From a bacterium (GTDB taxonomy: Bacteria; Sysuimicrobiota; Sysuimicrobiia; Sysuimicrobiales; Segetimicrobiaceae): 37,167 bases of DNA. The DNA is taken from contig DASYZR010000074.1 in assembly GCA_035945995.1 (NCBI GenBank), positions 1 to 37,167 on the forward strand, given 5' to 3'. Under the pieces are notes generated by a model that was given only the letters and a program-made list of their open reading frames with translations, ran no database searches and was not told the DNA's origin. Below, in pieces: positions 10,381-31,420 of this stretch. Every line of letters starts with the position of its first letter. The stretch's first letter is position 1. The translations under genes and the position numbers were made by a program.

Positions 10381-13278
10381 TTGCCTACGCAGCGTATTGC
10401 GGGAGCGGGGGAGCCGCAGCGCATCGTAGAGACGGCAGCGAGTGACCGGCCCGCCGACGTCGACCTGCGTGCGACGCTGATGGCACGCCTCGTCGCCGTG
10501 AGCGAGACCTTGCGCGGCGGTCTGTCGCCCGCGTCTGCCGCCGCCACGATCGGGCGCGGCCTGCTTACCTTGACCGGTGCGCGGCGCGGCGCCCTTTTTC
10601 TGCGCTCGCAGGCCGGCGTCGTGACCTGCCCCTGGTCCCAGGGACTGTCCGAAGAGTACCTCGGTCTGCTGCGCACTCCCGAGGGCGCCAATTCGTGGGC
10701 GCATCTGACCCGCTACCCTGAGCTGGTCTGCATGGACTTGCCGAGGCGCCGCGGAGCAAGAACGGCCGCGCCGTCTCTCGTGCCGGACGTGCGCGCGCTG
10801 CCGGGCGGCAATGAATCCCGCCGGCTCGCGGAACGTGAAGGCTGGCGGGCGCTGTGCTCGTGGCCGCTCAGCCGCGGGGGCCGCGTGTTCGCGGCCGTCG
10901 CGTACTACTTCGATAACCCCCATGTCTGCCCGGCCGCGGAGCACGAGGTCGTGCTGGCATTTGCCCTGCAGGCCACGGCGATGCTGGAACAAGCCCTGGA
11001 GGCGGAAGCGCGCGGACAGGTGGGAGCGGAGGTCGACGACGCGGCGACGCGGCTCAGCGAGGAAGAAGGCCGGCTCCGGACCGAAGCGGCGGCGCTCGCG
11101 ACGCTGCAGCGCACGTTGGAGGCCGACGACGCGCGGCTTGCCGCCGACCGGGCGGGCCTTGCCGCCGAGCGCGAGCGGCTCGAACGCACGCGCGCCGAGT
11201 TCGACGTGGAGCGCAAGCGGCTCGTCGGCCTGCGCCGTGCGGCGGACGCGGAGTCCCAGCGGCTGGCCGCCTCCCGCACCGAGCTGGAAGCGGAGCGGGA
11301 GCGCATCGCGGCCGCGCGGCGCGAGGGGGAGGCGGAACGGAGCCGTGTCGCGGCCGAGTTGGCCGCGGGGCGGACCGAACTGGCGCAGGCGCGGATGGCG
11401 CTCCGCGCCGAAACCGAGGCCTTGACGGACGCGCGCCGTACCGTCGAGACCGATCGGGCCCGGTTGGCGGATCGTGAGCGGACGCTCGAGACCAAGCGGG
11501 AACGGGTGGCGGAGCGCGAGCGGACGCTGGCGACCGAGCAGGAGCGGCAGGCCGCGGCGCATCGCGAGGTGGACGCGGCGCGGAGCCGGGGCGCGGCCGA
11601 GCTGGCGGCGGAACGGGCTCAACTGGCGAAGGCACAGACGGCGCTCCGGGCCGAAACCGCCGCCGTGGCGGAAACGCGCCGCAGCCTGGAGGCCGATCGG
11701 GCCCGTCTGGCGGAGCGCGAGCGGACGCTGGCGACCGAGCGCGATCGGCTGGCGGAGCGCGAGCGAACGCTGGGTACCGAGCAGGAGCGGCTCGCCGGGA
11801 TGCAGCGCGACGCGGAGGCCGAGCGGAGCCGAGCCGCGGCCGAACTGGCGGCGGAACGGGCCCAACTGACGCAGGCCCAGACGGCGCTCCGGGCCGAAAC
11901 CGCCGCCGTGGCAGAGGCGCGCCGCAGCCTGGAAACCGATCGGGCGCGCTTGGCGGATCGGGAGCGGACGCTGGACACCGAGCGGGAGCGGCTGGTGGAG
12001 CTTCAGCGGACGCTCGGCACCGAGCGGGAGCGGCTGGGGCAGCTTCAAGGGACTCTGGACGCCGAGCGAGGGGGCCTGGGCGATCTTCGACGGACGCTCG
12101 ACGCCGAGCGGGAACGCCTGGCGGAGGCACAGCGCGCACTGGCGACGGAGCGTGCGCAGGCCATGGACTCCGCCGCGCAGCACAACGCGGAAGAGTTGGC
12201 CCGCGCCCTCAAGGAGCTGGACGACGAAAAGAGCCGGTTGATCGACGCGCACAGCGAGCTCACCGCCGCGGAGGGGCAGGTCGCCCGGCGGCAACTCGCC
12301 CTGGAGGCCGAAGCGACGCAACTGGCTGAGACGCGCCGCGAGCTCGAGGCGGAGCATGCCCGCCATGCCGCAGCGCAGCGGGCGCTCGAGACCGATCGCC
12401 GTGCGCACGGCGCCGATCGCGAGGCGCTGGAGGCGGCCCGGCGTGTGCTCGAGACCGAGCAGGTCACGCTCGCGGAGGCGCAGCAGACGTTTGACGCGCA
12501 CCGCGTCCGGCTTGCCGAAGCGGAGCACACCTTCGGGGCGCAGCGGGCGCGCCTCGAAGAGGTGCGGCGGGCCCTCGACGCCGAGCACGCGGGCCTCAAC
12601 GAGACGCAGAACGGGTTGACGGCCGAATGCGCCCGGTTGTCGGCCGCCGTCGCGGTCCTCGCGGAGCGCGCGACGGCGGCGGCGGTTGACGCGACACCGT
12701 CGGCCGCCCCGGCGCCCGTTCCGGCAAGCGAGACACCGGCCGCCGCTCCACCGGCCGCGGAGGCGCCGGGAGCCGAAGCGCCCGCCGCGGAGGAACACGC
12801 CACCGGCGCGGCCCTGCCGCCCGCATCCGATGGTGCGCCGGCCTCAACGGAGAAGGCCGCCCCCGCCCCCCGGCCGCACGCGGACCGATACCGCAAGCGG
12901 CTGGCGGGTTGGGCGGAAGCCGTGGCCCGAGCGCTCGCGTGCGACGAAGCCGAGGTGCGCGACATCCGGCAGGCGGCGCTGCTCCACGACGTCGAGGTGC
13001 CGGACCCGCTCGACGCGGCGCCCCAGGTGGCGGCGTTCCTCCGTTACCGGAACGAACGCTGGAACGGCTCCGGGCCCGATCGGATGAAGGGAGAGGACAT
13101 TCCGCGGGGGGCCAGGATTCTCGCGGTGGCGGAGGCCTACGCGGACATGGTGACCGGCCGGCCCGGGGTGCCGATGCTGTACTACCTGGATGCGATGGCG
13201 GCCCTTAAGCGCGGCGCCGGCAAAGAATTCGATCCCAAGATCGTGACGATCTTCCGCCGCGTCGTCGACCACAGCTAG
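10381..13278 (+). CDS. GAF - long coiled coil - degenerate HD-GYP protein, 965 aa
   Basis: The TTG start follows a GAGGGG site. Residues 30-205 form a GAF-like sensor (GARRGALFL, LCSWPLSRGGRVFAAVAYYF). About 205-765 is one continuous charged coiled coil built of Glu/Arg/Ala/Leu units such as ADRERTLETERERL, including three near-identical 81-residue repeats. An Ala/Pro-rich linker (766-835) leads to an HD-family domain at 840-965. There the HD pair is kept (LLHDVE, His869-Asp870), but the HHExxxGxGYP segment reads RYRNERWNGSGPD: the His pair and the Tyr are gone. I infer a sensory or scaffold protein whose cyclic-di-GMP phosphodiesterase activity is probably lost. There is no membrane segment. 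It is monocistronic, upstream of the aminotransferase by 74 bases. Confidence 0.92.
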   Translation: MPTQRIAGAGEPQRIVETAASDRPADVDLRATLMARLVAVSETLRGGLSPASAAATIGRGLLTLTGARRGALFLRSQAGVVTCPWSQGLSEEYLGLLRTPEGANSWAHLTRYPELVCMDLPRRRGARTAAPSLVPDVRALPGGNESRRLAEREGWRALCSWPLSRGGRVFAAVAYYFDNPHVCPAAEHEVVLAFALQATAMLEQALEAEARGQVGAEVDDAATRLSEEEGRLRTEAAALATLQRTLEADDARLAADRAGLAAERERLERTRAEFDVERKRLVGLRRAADAESQRLAASRTELEAERERIAAARREGEAERSRVAAELAAGRTELAQARMALRAETEALTDARRTVETDRARLADRERTLETKRERVAERERTLATEQERQAAAHREVDAARSRGAAELAAERAQLAKAQTALRAETAAVAETRRSLEADRARLAERERTLATERDRLAERERTLGTEQERLAGMQRDAEAERSRAAAELAAERAQLTQAQTALRAETAAVAEARRSLETDRARLADRERTLDTERERLVELQRTLGTERERLGQLQGTLDAERGGLGDLRRTLDAERERLAEAQRALATERAQAMDSAAQHNAEELARALKELDDEKSRLIDAHSELTAAEGQVARRQLALEAEATQLAETRRELEAEHARHAAAQRALETDRRAHGADREALEAARRVLETEQVTLAEAQQTFDAHRVRLAEAEHTFGAQRARLEEVRRALDAEHAGLNETQNGLTAECARLSAAVAVLAERATAAAVDATPSAAPAPVPASETPAAAPPAAEAPGAEAPAAEEHATGAALPPASDGAPASTEKAAPAPRPHADRYRKRLAGWAEAVARALACDEAEVRDIRQAALLHDVEVPDPLDAAPQVAAFLRYRNERWNGSGPDRMKGEDIPRGARILAVAEAYADMVTGRPGVPMLYYLDAMAALKRGAGKEFDPKIVTIFRRVVDHS
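11338..12066 (+). repeat. Three tandem 243-bp (81-codon) repeats inside the coiled-coil gene
   Basis: Copies begin at 11338, 11581 and 11824, each starting RSRxAAELAA and running through ALRAETxA, ARLAxRERTL and a final ER-rich segment. The period is exactly 243 bases and the copies remain highly similar at DNA level, especially the second and third, which suggests recent duplication or gene conversion. The period is a whole number of codons, so copy-number change would alter coiled-coil length without a frameshift. Confidence 0.88.
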
Positions 13279-13352
13279 CCCCCGGCGGGCAGGCATTCTC
13301 CATCTCGCCATGGAACCCGGCGGCGACCACGCTGCCGACCGGGAGGCTTCGC

Positions 13353-22355: not shown

Positions 22356-22386
22356 TTGCTCTTTGGCAATTTTTGCAATAGCGCAA

Positions 22387-22414
22387 TTCAACTTAGCGTT
22401 CTCCATGCTAAACT
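22387..22414 (+). promoter_or_regulatory. Possible promoter for the MEDS-CRP regulator
   Basis: TTCAAC (22387-22392) and TAAACT (22409-22414), 16 bases apart, lie in an AT-rich island (about 22358-22415) that contrasts sharply with the surrounding GC. This placement argues that the coding start is downstream at 22477 rather than the earlier in-frame ATGs at 22363 and 22405. Confidence 0.37.
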
Positions 22415-22476
22415 GCGCACGTGCCCCGAGGAGCGAACATCTGTCCACCATCGGCGCCAGGAGCATCACGCTTCCG

Positions 22477-23769
22477 ATGACGGCCCGACCCAACACAAGA
22501 CGCGCCCGGGCGAAGCGCCGGGCGCGGCAGCCGCAGCCTGCCCGGTTGGAGGAGATCGTCATCGGCAAACACGGCGTCCTCATTTACGACGGCGCGTCCG
22601 AATTCGTGTCGTTTGCCGCCGCGTTCGTCCGGCAGGGATTGGGGCGAGGGGAACGTTGCCTCTCGGTCGTCGATCACCTGATCGCCGAGGCGCTCGTCGC
22701 GGCCCTCGACGGCGGTGGCGTCGACGTTGCCCTGGAGACCGAGCGCGGGGCGCTGGCGATGATCCGCACCCAGGACTACGCCGCGCCGTCAGGCGTCGAT
22801 GCCGCCGCGTTGATCGACGCCGTGCGACGGGTCGCCAACGACCCGCGGTCGCGACGGTTTGCCGGCCTTCGCCTCGCGATGGACCTGACCTGGGCGTCGA
22901 AAGCGGCCGCCGGCGCGGATTCTCTCACAGAGATCGACGCGCTGTTCGATGACGGTACGGAACGGTACGCGTGGACCGGGATCACCGCCTACCGTGACGG
23001 CACCTTCGCGCCGGCGACGATGCGGGGGGTGATCCGCGGCCATCGGACCGTGCTTGCGCCGGACTACGTTCACGTCGACCTCAATCCCATCTTCGAGGGA
23101 CTGAACGCAAAGGCACGGGCGTCGCTCCTCGCCGCCGCCGCCGAGCGCCTCGTTCGCAAAGGTGAATTCTATTTCCGTGAAGGCGAGGAGGCGGCGGAAG
23201 TCTTCCTCTTGACCCGCGGTCGGGTCGCGGCCGGCCGGACGGATCTCGACGGCCGCCGCATCCTGAGCCTCGAGATCGCGTCACCGTCGGGGGTCTTCGG
23301 ATACGCGAGCGTCCTCGGCCGCAACGTCCGCCTCGTCTCGGCCCAGGCGCTCGAGGACTCGCGCGCCCTGGCGTGGGATGCGGCGACGATTCGCCGGGCC
23401 ATCGCCTCCCGCCCCGAAGTCGCCACGGCCGCGATTCAGTACCTGCTCCGGCAGCAACTGAACCAGTGGGTCGACCTGTCCATCATCGCTACCGAACGCC
23501 TCGAACAGCGGCTGGCGCGGGCCGTGCGCCGCCTCGCGCAGTCGGCCGGCCGGCCGGCCCCGAACGGGGCCGTGATCGAGCTGTCGCTGTCCGGTCACGA
23601 TCTGGGGGCCATGATCGTGACCACCCCGTACACGGTCAGCCGGATCCTGGCCGGCTGGAGGCGCCTCGGGATCGTGGACGCGCGGCGCGACCGGATCGTC
23701 ATCCTCGACGGGAAGCGCTTGGCGGCCGTCGCGCGGCCCGACACGGAGGGCGAGTCGGCCGCGGGCTAG
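22477..23769 (+). CDS. MEDS sensory domain - CRP/FNR-type transcription regulator fusion
   Basis: A 430-residue protein from ATG 22477. Residues 28-200 match the MEDS domain (methanogen/methylotroph DcmR sensory): KHGVLIYDGASEFVSFAAAF, a FVRQGLGRGERCLSVVD strand-helix, DLTWA and the closing RTVLAPDYVHVD. Residues 205-310 form a cyclic-nucleotide-binding-like beta roll (GEFYFREGEEAAEVFLLTRG). After a dimerisation helix (about 312-350), residues 365-415 form a Crp-type HTH (HDLGAMIVTTPYTVSRILAGWRRLGIV). The expected RxA phosphate cassette is not obvious, so cAMP binding is doubtful. It lies 170 bases upstream of korA on the same strand and may sense a small metabolite for control of korAB. Confidence 0.9.
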   Translation: MTARPNTRRARAKRRARQPQPARLEEIVIGKHGVLIYDGASEFVSFAAAFVRQGLGRGERCLSVVDHLIAEALVAALDGGGVDVALETERGALAMIRTQDYAAPSGVDAAALIDAVRRVANDPRSRRFAGLRLAMDLTWASKAAAGADSLTEIDALFDDGTERYAWTGITAYRDGTFAPATMRGVIRGHRTVLAPDYVHVDLNPIFEGLNAKARASLLAAAAERLVRKGEFYFREGEEAAEVFLLTRGRVAAGRTDLDGRRILSLEIASPSGVFGYASVLGRNVRLVSAQALEDSRALAWDAATIRRAIASRPEVATAAIQYLLRQQLNQWVDLSIIATERLEQRLARAVRRLAQSAGRPAPNGAVIELSLSGHDLGAMIVTTPYTVSRILAGWRRLGIVDARRDRIVILDGKRLAAVARPDTEGESAAG

Positions 23770-27230: not shown

Positions 27231-27536
27231 AATCTCCTGGCGAGGTTTACTCAAATAAATGTCGGCAGGAATGAGCCAAGCCGCATTGAACTTCTACAGA
27301 CCTTGGTCGGGGCGGGTGGGGGAACGGCGGTCTACCATACCGCACATCCCCGGGGTGCCCGTCGGGCAACGGAGGGGGATTCACGGCAGTCGCCGCGATG
27401 ACGGCGAACAATTACATACCGAGTGGGTGACGTGCACAACGCACGGACTTGGTTTCGTAGCTCACTCGTACGTGGTTCCATGTACGGCGACGGCGGCGCA
27501 TAAATCAGGGCGCTCGGTGCTCCCGGTGCCTTGAGT
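27231..27536. other. Intergenic region upstream of the membrane HD operon
   Basis: About 300 bases without a credible gene; a 91-codon frame at 27259-27534 has no family-like composition and I reject it. The stretch contains GGCAGGAAT at 27264, resembling motifs before HU and before the HTH-TPR gene, and a hairpin CGTGC-ACAAC-GCACG at 27431-27445. It is less GC-rich than the coding flanks, consistent with promoter and leader sequence for the downstream HD pair. Confidence 0.4.
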
Positions 27537-28871
27537 ATGCTCCCACTCAACCCCCGACCAGGTTTTGTCGTTTCATCCCCCGGTGCGTTCACGATGGTCC
27601 GCGGCTGGCTGCGAACCATCGTGGCCTTGAACGTTCGCGCCCCCGATGAGCTGGAGGAATACCGCCGTCCGCCGGCGTGGTTGCGCGTCGCACTCCTCAG
27701 CAGTCTTCTCGTTGACATCGGCGCGCTGGCGCGGCTTGCACCACGCGATATCCCCGCGGTCATTGCGCTGACGGTCGTCTACGCTCTGACCATGCTCGTG
27801 CCGCCTGTTGCGAGTCCGCTCGGGATGATACGCACGCCGCGTGTCGCGTTCTTGGTGACCCTCATGTTGCTGTGGTCCCCGTTGCACACGCTACTCGCGG
27901 TCGCCTTTGGCACGCTTCTTGCCGTGTTTGCATTCCGGCTCTACGAACCCTGGCGAGCGCTTATCAACACCGTCTTCTGGGCCTATCCGGCCGCCTTTGC
28001 ATCGCTGGTCGGCCACGCGGCACTGCGCGAGATTCCCGACCCGCTGGTTGGACTTACCGTGGCCGGCCTAGTCATACTGGTCGTGTATCTGGCCACAAAC
28101 TTCGCATTGCTCGCGCTGTACCGCCGTCTGCGTCACGGCGAAGCATTTTTCGCCTACTGGTGGAGTTGCCTGACGGAGAATCCGCTCGCGCAGGTGCTGG
28201 CGGCTCCGCTTCCGATTCTGTTGGGCGCCATCGCCCTCGGGGTCGGGCGAACGCCGTGGACGGCGCTGCTTCTCACGGCCCTGTCGGCGGTCACCATGCC
28301 GCCCGGCCGGGCCCAACTGGCCATCTTCCTCGCCTCGCAGCGGACCGTGCAGGACATCGTTCGTGCGTTGATGATCGCGCTGGAGCGGACGGCTCCGGGC
28401 GCGCAGGAGCACGCACGGCGGGTGAGCGATCTCGTCGGCGAGATGGGGCGCCGTCTGCGGGTTTCTCCCGACACGGTGGAGACGTGGCGCACCGCGGCGC
28501 TGCTGCACGACATCGGCCTCATCGACGCCGCCAGGCGGGCGGACTCGCCGGAAGGTCACGCGGTCGCCGGGGCGCGGATTCTCGCGTCGTATCCGGACAC
28601 GATCGTCGCCGACATGGTGCGGGAACACCACACCCCGTGGTCGGAACTGTCGCCGCGGCTGCGCGGTCCGGCGGCCCTCGGGGCGCGGGTGCTCGCCGCG
28701 GCCGAATATTACGATGAACTGCGGTACGGCACGCCGGAGAGGCCCGGTCTCATCACCCACGCGGCCACCGCGGAAGCCCTTCGTCCGCTGTTTGGCACAC
28801 AGTTGGACCCTCGGGTCGCTGCGGTACTTCTCGATGCGGCCCGGTCGCTCGACCCCAAAGCGGTTTCATGA
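27537..28871 (+). CDS. Membrane protein with C-terminal HD-GYP-like domain
   Basis: About 444 residues from ATG 27537 (TTG 27531 and ATG 27594 are alternatives; none has a strong ribosome site). Six or seven hydrophobic helices occupy about 45-265. The C-terminal domain is HD-type: LLHDIGLID (His324-Asp325), GHAVAGARIL and REHHTPW keep the metal-ligand pattern. The GYP loop is absent, though, with WSELSPRLRGPA in its place. It is therefore a divergent HD-GYP relative that may or may not hydrolyse cyclic-di-GMP. Its stop overlaps the next start as ATGA, so it is co-translated with the HD-GYP-MFS fusion and the two may form one membrane complex. Confidence 0.88.
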   Translation: MLPLNPRPGFVVSSPGAFTMVRGWLRTIVALNVRAPDELEEYRRPPAWLRVALLSSLLVDIGALARLAPRDIPAVIALTVVYALTMLVPPVASPLGMIRTPRVAFLVTLMLLWSPLHTLLAVAFGTLLAVFAFRLYEPWRALINTVFWAYPAAFASLVGHAALREIPDPLVGLTVAGLVILVVYLATNFALLALYRRLRHGEAFFAYWWSCLTENPLAQVLAAPLPILLGAIALGVGRTPWTALLLTALSAVTMPPGRAQLAIFLASQRTVQDIVRALMIALERTAPGAQEHARRVSDLVGEMGRRLRVSPDTVETWRTAALLHDIGLIDAARRADSPEGHAVAGARILASYPDTIVADMVREHHTPWSELSPRLRGPAALGARVLAAAEYYDELRYGTPERPGLITHAATAEALRPLFGTQLDPRVAAVLLDAARSLDPKAVS

Positions 28872-31420
28872 CGCGAACGCGGCGGATCGCCGTCCTGAAC
28901 GGGCTGCTGTTCTTGCTCCCGGCCGTGGTCTGGGCCCGGTGGGGCCTCGGCACGCACGTGCGGCTGCCCGATCTGCTGCTGCTGGCATCGACCGCGGCGA
29001 CGGTGGCGTGGCTCGCGGCCTACCCGTTGCGGATTTCGCCGAGCGATGATTTCCCGCTGCTGGTGGTTCCCGTGCTGGTCGCGCTCGGCCTCGGCCGGCC
29101 GCAGCTCGCGCTGGCCGGCGGTCTCTTCGGTCTTGCGGCCGCGACGGTCGGGGAGCCGGAGCGGTGGGGCGGCGTCCGCGCGATGGAAGAGGGCACGGCG
29201 CTCGCGGGCGGCGTGCTGGCGGTGATGCTGATCCGGTTGCCGCAGTTCCCCGATGCGCCGTACCGCCTCGGCACGCTCGTCCCCATAGTCATCGCGGCGA
29301 TCGTTTACGCGGCCGTTCGGCCACCGCTCGTCGCCGTTCGAATTGCCCGGACCGAACGGATGGCGTGGAGACGCGCGCTCATCGTCGTCGGCAACGGGTG
29401 GGGGACCTCGTTGGTCAGCTCCGTGGCGCTGGTCCTCGCGACCGTCGCGATCGAGCGCCTCTGGCTGCCGCACGCAAGCCGGGTCGCCTTGAGCGCCCTG
29501 CCGCTGTTGGCCGGCGGCGTGGTGCTCCACGTGTTTCATCCGCGTTCGATGAGCGGCCGGGAGGAGCGTCGTGTGCTGGCCACCACGGCGGTGCTCGCGG
29601 ACGCCATGGACGTGAAGGATACGCGCACCGGGCTGCATTCGCAGGACGTCGCGCAGCTCTCCAAACAGATTGCCCGGGCCGCCGGAGTGAGCGAGCGGTT
29701 GGCGCACGACGCGTTCCTGACCGGTCTGCTGCACGACATCGGCAAGGTCGCCGTTCCGGACGCCATTCTACAGAAGCCGGGCAAGCTCGACCCCGATGAG
29801 TGGCGCGTGATGGAGCACCACGTCCTCGACAGCGCCGCCATGGTCGAGTCGATTGCCGGCCTTTCGCGCATCGTCCCGCTCGTCCGCGCGAGCCACGAGC
29901 ACTACGACGGATCCGGCTACCCCGACGGCCTCGCCGGCCGGGCGATCCCGCTGGCCGCACGGATCGTGGCGATCGCGGATGCCTACCACGCCTTGACGAA
30001 CGACCGCGTCTACCGGCCGCGGGCAAGTCGCGAGACGGCGCTCGCGGAGCTCGAGCGGTGCAGCGGCACGCAGTTCGATCCGGCGCTCGTCCGGGCCCTG
30101 CGCCGGGTGGTCGGCGCGGGCGCTCGACCCCGCGCCCTCCCCGCGGCGCGTCCGGCGCCGGCCTGGCTCAGCGTGCTTCGCCGCCCGGCCTTCGCCCTGC
30201 TGTGGGGCGGCGAACTGGTCTCCTTTTTGGGCGACGAGGTCTTCTTCATCGCGATCACTCTCTGGGTGTACGCGCTCACCGGGTCGGCGACAACGCTGGC
30301 GGCCGCGCTGGGCGCGGGATACGTCGCGCAGGCGGTCTTCAGTTTTCTCGCCGGAACCATCGCCGATCGGGTGGACCGCCGCGTCATCGTCGCGTTTTCG
30401 GACGTCGGCCGGGCGCTGGTCGTGGCCGCCCTCCCGTTTGTGCTTCCGTGGTCGCTGCCCGCGGGGCTGATCCTGCTCGGAATTCTGAACGTCGGCTCCG
30501 TGTTCTTCCGCGCGGCCGTCAACGCGCTGCTGCCGTCGATCGCGACGGCGGAAGAGCTGCAGGCGGTGAACGCGCTGTTCCAGACGACGGAGCGGGTCGC
30601 GGAGATTCTCGGCGGGGTCCTCGGAGCGGCGGCGGTGCTGGCGCTGGGCTACGCGGGTGTCATGTTCGCCGACGCCGGGTCGTTCCTGGTGAGCGCCGCG
30701 TGCGTCCTCCTCATGCCGCTCGCGTGGGGCGCGGGCCTCGGTACCAGGCGGCGCGTCTCGATCACCGCCGATCTCACGACGGGGCTCCGGTACTTATGGA
30801 GGACGCCGTTCCAGCGATACTTTGCCCTGTTGATCGTGCCGGGCTACCTCACCCTCGCATTCGAAGCGCTTCGCGCGCCGATGATCGTGCACACCGCCCA
30901 CCTCTCGCCAACGGCCTACGGGGTCGTGAACAGCACGCTCGGCGCGGGCAAACTGGCGACCGCGCTCGTCCTGGCCGGGCTGACGAGGCGGTGGGCGACG
31001 CCGGGTCTGGCGGTCGTCGCCTATTTGATCGCCGGTCTCGGCGTGGCGGTGTTCGCGTCCGCGCCGTGGTATCTCGGGTTGGTGGCGGGAACGTTTATCT
31101 TTGCGGTCGGCAACATGCTCTCGTACATCGTCAACGCCACGCTCGTCATGCAGACGACCCCGCAGGAGCTGCTCGGCCGCGTCCTCGGCAACCGTCAGGT
31201 GCTCGTCCAGGGCACGCGTCTCATCGGCGCGCTCGCGCTGGGGCGTCTTGCCGACACCGCGTCGCCGCCGGTAGCGTTATGGGCTATGGCCGGCGTCTCG
31301 ATGGGCGGCGTGTTGATGCTTTGGCTCTTCACCGGCCGCTCGGTGGCCGCGTCGACGCCGCCCCCCGCGTCCGCCGCCGGCGGAGCGGCCCGCTCCGTCG
31401 CGGAACTCGAGCCGTCGTAG
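28868..31420 (+). CDS. Membrane sensor - HD-GYP - MFS transporter fusion, 850 aa
   Basis: Three modules lie in one uninterrupted frame. Residues 1-225 hold about seven hydrophobic helices. Residues 235-415 are an HD-GYP domain: His257, LLHDIGKVAVPD with His289-Asp290, MEHHVLDSA, ASHEHYDGSGYPDGL (one His of the usual HHE pair is Ser342; GYP is intact) and IADAYHALTNDR. After a Pro/Ala linker, residues 435-830 form a full MFS permease of the enterobactin-exporter-like MFS_3 type (LLWGGELVSFLGDEVFF, AGTIADRVDRRVIV, ALLPSIATAEELQAVNALFQT). HD-GYP proteins normally hydrolyse cyclic-di-GMP; fusing one to a transporter is unusual and suggests signal-coupled efflux. ATG 28868 overlaps the preceding gene's stop. 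Confidence 0.94.
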   Translation: MTRTRRIAVLNGLLFLLPAVVWARWGLGTHVRLPDLLLLASTAATVAWLAAYPLRISPSDDFPLLVVPVLVALGLGRPQLALAGGLFGLAAATVGEPERWGGVRAMEEGTALAGGVLAVMLIRLPQFPDAPYRLGTLVPIVIAAIVYAAVRPPLVAVRIARTERMAWRRALIVVGNGWGTSLVSSVALVLATVAIERLWLPHASRVALSALPLLAGGVVLHVFHPRSMSGREERRVLATTAVLADAMDVKDTRTGLHSQDVAQLSKQIARAAGVSERLAHDAFLTGLLHDIGKVAVPDAILQKPGKLDPDEWRVMEHHVLDSAAMVESIAGLSRIVPLVRASHEHYDGSGYPDGLAGRAIPLAARIVAIADAYHALTNDRVYRPRASRETALAELERCSGTQFDPALVRALRRVVGAGARPRALPAARPAPAWLSVLRRPAFALLWGGELVSFLGDEVFFIAITLWVYALTGSATTLAAALGAGYVAQAVFSFLAGTIADRVDRRVIVAFSDVGRALVVAALPFVLPWSLPAGLILLGILNVGSVFFRAAVNALLPSIATAEELQAVNALFQTTERVAEILGGVLGAAAVLALGYAGVMFADAGSFLVSAACVLLMPLAWGAGLGTRRRVSITADLTTGLRYLWRTPFQRYFALLIVPGYLTLAFEALRAPMIVHTAHLSPTAYGVVNSTLGAGKLATALVLAGLTRRWATPGLAVVAYLIAGLGVAVFASAPWYLGLVAGTFIFAVGNMLSYIVNATLVMQTTPQELLGRVLGNRQVLVQGTRLIGALALGRLADTASPPVALWAMAGVSMGGVLMLWLFTGRSVAASTPPPASAAGGAARSVAELEPS

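Follow-up and report, generated by a model that had tools for sequence, protein, structure and literature searches.

The window analysed here, 37,167 nucleotides long, comprises positions 1 to 37,167 of contig DASYZR010000074.1 (assembly GCA_035945995.1) from a bacterium of the family Segetimicrobiaceae, phylum Sysuimicrobiota. At 28868-31420 of its forward strand lies a single open frame of 850 codons, translated without a stop, which joins an N-terminal membrane domain, an HD-GYP domain and a major facilitator superfamily (MFS) exporter in one protein. The membrane domain (residues 1-228; 28868-29551, +), a putative sensor, is modelled with a fold like that of the S components of energy-coupling factor (ECF) transporters. 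It is followed by the HD-GYP domain (residues 242-407; 29591-30088, +), which matches HD_5 in Pfam at 3.5e-37 (128 bits against a cut-off of 27). A variable, Pro/Ala/Arg-rich linker (residues 416-436; 30113-30175, +), delimited by alignment and by the ratio of non-synonymous to synonymous substitution rates (dN/dS), leads into the MFS part (residues 437-825; 30176-31342, +). The latter matches MFS_1 from residue 445 (3.6e-17, 62.8 bits against a cut-off of 33.4) and is modelled with 12 helices, the closest structures being YegT (Z 37.2) and SotB (Z 36.9) over about 365 aligned residues. Its likeness is to general drug/H+ antiporter families; TIGR00900 (H+ antiporter) gives 5.6e-51 with a score of 174, under the curated cut-off of 319.6. 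A simple hydropathy count yielded 16 helices over the whole fusion and undercounted the MFS half, and a promoter scan detected no promoter. The initial annotation, made from the letters of the window, had proposed one 850-residue frame joining membrane helices, an HD-GYP domain and a full 12-helix MFS permease, and translation, Pfam and the models bear this out. Its assignment of the permease to MFS_3 holds as regards MFS_1 and the 12-helix fold, the MFS_3 score itself (residues 434-818; 2.7e-6) being 26.5 and thus slightly short of the cut-off of 27.

Full-length, single-frame orthologues were found in seven further genomes, giving eight genomes in four genera of one family at identities of 42-76%. 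Two same-genus orthologues are 75-76% identical to the fusion of the window, and five from three other genera 42-46%. The selected coding sequences of all eight fusions can be aligned end to end. The search counted an in-frame TAG at the match edge in one orthologous genome (G005) and, with another query, in a second (G006); in our reading neither falls within the coding sequences chosen. In the three same-genus pairs, purifying selection acts on both halves, with dN/dS near 0.11-0.17 across the HD-GYP part and 0.10-0.13 across the MFS part; the linker, at about 0.3-0.6, exceeds both flanking domains. No internal start codon in the linker is conserved across the orthologues, and in one of them the 45 codons preceding the MFS part contain no start at all; on these grounds we reject a separately translated MFS part. 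The initial annotation had located a possible stop or join between the halves near 30,120-30,190 and had raised homologues always encoded as separate proteins. There is no stop or join in that interval, the homologues are not invariably separate, and the seven orthologous assemblies led us to reject an assembly join or a missed stop. The fusion of membrane domain, HD-GYP domain and MFS part in one frame is thus real. A match to the MFS part is absent from four genomes of one genus in the same family, namely G003 (97% complete), G008 (92%) and two incomplete ones, so that the fusion may have been lost in G003 and G008 or may be hidden by assembly gaps. Both belong to the genus of G006. The OOR locus of the four genomes lies on short contigs, with the fusion not in view.

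To compare the active site with that of PmGH (4mcw), a trinuclear HD-GYP phosphodiesterase (PMC4159591), we mapped the residues of the fusion onto PmGH through the PDB alignment. The fusions retain the equivalents of D183, H189, H221, D222, K225, H250, H277, G284, Y285, P286, D305 and R314, and both H289-D290-K293, the HD diad with its lysine, and G350-Y351-P352 are invariant in all eight. The equivalent of H276, Ser342, is serine in every fusion (HHE to SHE), so the set H...HD...H...HH...D lacks the first histidine of its HH pair. The equivalent of D308, which is not a metal ligand, is His374 in the window and Asn or His throughout the eight. E185 corresponds to R253 in the fusion of the window, to Tyr in five orthologues and to Leu in one; D248 had been considered as the E185 equivalent and was dropped when the PDB alignment pointed to R253. 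Two of the eight PmGH metal ligands are thus altered in the window (E185 to R, H276 to S), and the earlier description of a domain with most metal ligands and an intact GYP was right, six of the eight being kept. PmGH shares with the fusion its fold, most metal ligands, the GYP motif, D183 and K225, and differs in having a GAF sensor and all eight ligands. Substituting alanine for H276 or D308 inactivates PmGH, an effect not seen with alanine in place of G284, Y285, P286, R314 or K317 (PMC4159591); the additional histidine has been named as a hallmark of HD-GYP enzymes, with the ligand set H...HD...H...HH...D defined in the same work (PMC8177086). Because every fusion has lost one metal-binding histidine together with the D308 equivalent, the domain may bind its nucleotide rather than degrade it.

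Such a role has a precedent in DvhD of Desulfovibrio vulgaris, an inactive HD-GYP that serves as a receptor for cyclic di-GMP (c-di-GMP) within a membrane protein (PMC13090378) and whose structure is the HD-GYP one listed among the Foldseek matches to the model. Like the fusion, DvhD is a membrane protein with an HD-GYP domain short of metal ligands; it differs in its own periplasmic dCache and PAS domains, in the absence of a transporter and in being far more degenerate (its HD is SQ).

Immediately upstream of the fusion, in all eight genomes, lies a second membrane-HD gene. In the window it occupies 27531-28871 (+; 446 aa; its start may be TTG 27531 or ATG 27537) and encodes a membrane protein with a degenerate HD domain (Pfam HD, 4.6e-13). 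The two genes overlap by 4 bp of the form NTGA (28868-28871, +), the overlap being ATGA, GTGA or TTGA in each of the eight genomes. In the partner HD domain the H and HD residues are kept, E replaces D305, and neither a K225 equivalent nor an intact GYP is present. The membrane parts of partner and fusion are homologous (hhalign probability 96.4, E 1.1e-9). An HD domain paired with an HD-GYP is also found in V-cGAP3 (5z7c), the top PDB sequence match to the HD-GYP of the fusion (5.2e-36); V-cGAP3 is a single soluble chain and an active enzyme, whereas here HD and HD-GYP are encoded by two adjacent, overlapping genes for membrane proteins and not as one chain. Both this partner gene and the S-component-like fold had been missed in the initial annotation.

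The N-terminal membrane domain was modelled alone from 25 homologues with a predicted local distance difference test (pLDDT) of 86 and a predicted template modelling score (pTM) of 0.86. The model has eight helices, six forming a core that is flanked by one more at either side, close to the approximately seven counted earlier. Its 15 best PDB matches are all S-type components of ECF transporters at Z 9.4-14.4, followed by a next match at 5.8; the top one is RibU (Z 14.4, 163 residues, root-mean-square deviation 2.9-3.3). Foldseek alone gave weak E-values (RibU, 0.18 at probability 0.99), and, according to a caution given by the structure-comparison tool, chance alone can bring helical bundles to a Z of 13-14. 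We argue for a true match in the model because the top matches are uniform and a gap lies below them. At the sequence level, the fusion has no Pfam match to an S-component family and no profile match against the PDB, and no ECF module was seen among the nearby genes examined. MASE9 (PF20972) likewise has no Pfam match in the fusion protein; it scores above cut-off in homologous solitary HD-GYP proteins and in the HD partner of one separate-gene locus (L065), by which the membrane domain appears related to MASE9 sensors. A literature search for MASE9 returned one unrelated paper only. ECF S components (RibU, ThiT, BioY) and MASE9 thus resemble the domain in modelled fold and through matches in its homologues, and differ in that the fusion protein itself matches neither family.

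The same three parts occur as separate, linked genes in 12 genomes of four sister families. Their order is MFS, degenerate membrane-HD partner and membrane HD-GYP on one strand in 11 of the 12, the exception (G026) having its MFS gene on the opposite strand, past the regulator gene. This cluster differs from the fusion in its three genes, with MFS first, in the regulator gene that usually follows and in its mostly intact HD-GYP active sites, which have Ser at H276 in two cases, Asn at D308 in three and both in none. In 11 of the 13 loci examined, some of them split or truncated by a contig end, the gene after HD-GYP encodes this large regulator, which is of the BTAD-AAA-TPR (SARP) type; it does not follow the HD-GYP gene at G015 and G017 and is not adjacent to the fused genes. 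It measures about 1190-1310 aa in L055-L060, L062-L064, L067 and L068. A C-terminal segment past helix 12, with an EF...Q..LN motif and hydrophobic stretches, is present on most separate MFS proteins (L055-L060, L062-L066) and on neither the fused MFS nor the G017 copy. An additional separate copy, L086, comes from a metagenome-assembled genome labelled Chloroflexi, its MFS falling inside the clade of family f2.

In the MFS tree, the eight fused MFS parts form a clade (100/100) that is sister to the separate MFS proteins (100/99), and the two together are split at 100/100 from 38 other MFS proteins, same-phylum ones included. The tree of membrane plus HD parts unites the fused HD-GYPs and those of the separate operons in one clade (98/97), apart from the solitary membrane HD-GYPs and the HD partner. 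A tree of the HD part only, built on a shorter alignment, conflicts with this by grouping the fused HD with solitary proteins (95/88); we prefer the longer alignment and record the conflict. With the fused parts coming out in the trees as sisters to the separate genes, one lineage appears to have fused a pre-existing module. The simplest history suggested by these trees is an existing three-gene module in which the MFS gene moved and a single fusion then took place in the ancestor of the family. Fusion in eight genomes, linkage in 12 and the sister relationship support the view that HD-GYP and exporter are functionally linked; since in relatives from the sister families these parts sit side by side as separate genes, the signalling module probably exerts direct control over the exporter.

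Because at least 13 GGDEF sites in the host genome score above the family cut-off, and several other HD-GYP domains occur there, c-di-GMP signalling is likely present. Within the window, a frame of 965 codons (10381-13278) carries at its 3' end a weak further HD-GYP-like stretch (12997-13329, +) that is 35% identical to the fusion, with one TAG in the match.

The reading that we put first, while holding it somewhat short of probable, is a second-messenger-controlled exporter in one chain, with the HD-GYP as receptor controlling the MFS part. The S-component-like, MASE9-related membrane domain would sense a ligand in or near the membrane and pass the signal on to the cytoplasmic HD-GYP. This domain would bind a cyclic dinucleotide, probably c-di-GMP, and pair with the degenerate HD of the protein co-translated from the gene upstream, and the activity of the MFS part, tethered through the short linker, would be set by the state that the nucleotide imposes on the HD pair. 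The HD-GYP would be mainly a receptor, perhaps a slow phosphodiesterase, and not an efficient enzyme. The initial annotation had suggested that c-di-GMP breakdown is coupled directly to export; the functional link stands, with the eight fused and 12 linked cases and the trees behind it, and the breakdown is the weaker part, the H276 and D308 equivalents being lost. Since the GYP and nucleotide contacts remain while these equivalents are gone, a receptor gating export seems at least as likely as breakdown. Several points weigh against such a receptor-controlled exporter. Many transporter-signalling fusions are known in which the transporter is the sensor, and the direction of control, towards the MFS part, is one that we infer. 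Pairing of the partner HD with the HD-GYP is suggested by synteny, its sole basis. The full-length model is moderate (pLDDT 71, pTM 0.48), and the domain arrangement cannot be read reliably from it. Weak or altered phosphodiesterase activity is possible because serine is not alanine and six ligands remain; two separate homologues also have Ser at H276, so activity may persist. The fuller claim, an exporter gated directly by a cyclic dinucleotide, in which the S-like receptor and the HD-GYP pair jointly open or close the MFS part and which would be a transporter class not described before, strikes us as rather doubtful.

The main rival reverses the flow of information: the MFS part, the S-like domain or both would sense a substrate and switch the HD-GYP, here an active phosphodiesterase that reduces the local level of c-di-GMP. 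The intact core catalytic residues (HD, K225, D183, H250, H277 and D305) are consistent with such a transport-coupled enzyme, and the SARP-type regulator gene located behind the separate genes at most loci points to a regulatory output in addition to transport. We nevertheless consider it unlikely, given that the H276 and D308 equivalents are consistently lost in exactly the fused lineage and that the fused loci are without an adjacent regulator gene. Mere co-localisation, in which HD-GYP and MFS have unrelated jobs in a shared operon and were joined by chance without mutual control, would fit the variable linker, and a fusion inside an operon can be neutral; conservation of fusion and separate linkage across five families makes this a still weaker candidate. 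Lower again we place export of the nucleotide itself, the HD-GYP pair hydrolysing or delivering a cyclic dinucleotide or its linear product to the MFS part. In Listeria, c-di-AMP is known to be exported by MFS pumps, and the exporter is physically tethered to a nucleotide-handling domain; against this, the MFS part resembles general drug/H+ antiporters, and its sequence holds no sign of nucleotide transport. An artefact (missed stop, frameshift or assembly join), which the draft state of the window genome (181 contigs) might suggest, has a negligible chance in view of the same full-length frame in seven other assemblies and the purifying selection across it in the tested pairs.

HD-GYP domains, MFS exporters, MASE-type sensors and transporter-signalling fusions are each known already. 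Neither a published HD-GYP-MFS fusion nor a matching separate gene cluster was found in the literature searched, whose scope stopped short of InterPro/CDART architecture queries and the supplementary tables of PMC8846402. A general precedent is given by PTS_EIIC domains joined to c-di-GMP enzymes, a transport-related domain in c-di-GMP protein architectures; they differ in being described as rare phosphoreceiver domains (PMC8846402) and in not being an MFS exporter. No record among 72,556 plasmids and 50,697 phage records covered 80% of the fusion protein, a weak negative. Outside the phylum, no fusion was seen at E 1e-66 in sets of 4, 291, 392, 10 and 2 genomes, drawn from the phyla of five genomes (about 700 in total), again a weak negative, with no positive control and two to three candidates per genome scored in the two large sets. 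These searches agree with the earlier statement that no described fusion of this kind was known; what is new, within the literature searched, is this combination together with the matching separate gene cluster.

Two other unusual frames stand apart from the system. The window contains at 22363-23769 (+) a 468-residue frame that combines a MEDS sensory domain (1.1e-26) with a Crp-type regulator (cNMP-binding, HTH_Crp_2), an unusual-looking one-component regulator. Near a separate operon, L056 carries at 11652-12959 (-) a frame of 436 residues that joins an RNase HI-like RVT_3 domain (3.1e-24) to a serine beta-lactamase-like Beta-lactamase2 domain (2.2e-60); in L064, the frame at 11508-12953 (-) starts similarly, the likeness being known for the start only.

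If the proposed control is true, small-molecule export would be regulated by a cyclic dinucleotide through direct contact and not via gene expression, and separate gene clusters across the phylum would become recognisable as one system. Since nature offers eight fusions and twelve separate versions, the coupling can be tested directly. The predicted S-component fold would, in addition, suggest that MASE9-like sensors are membrane-embedded binders of small molecules.

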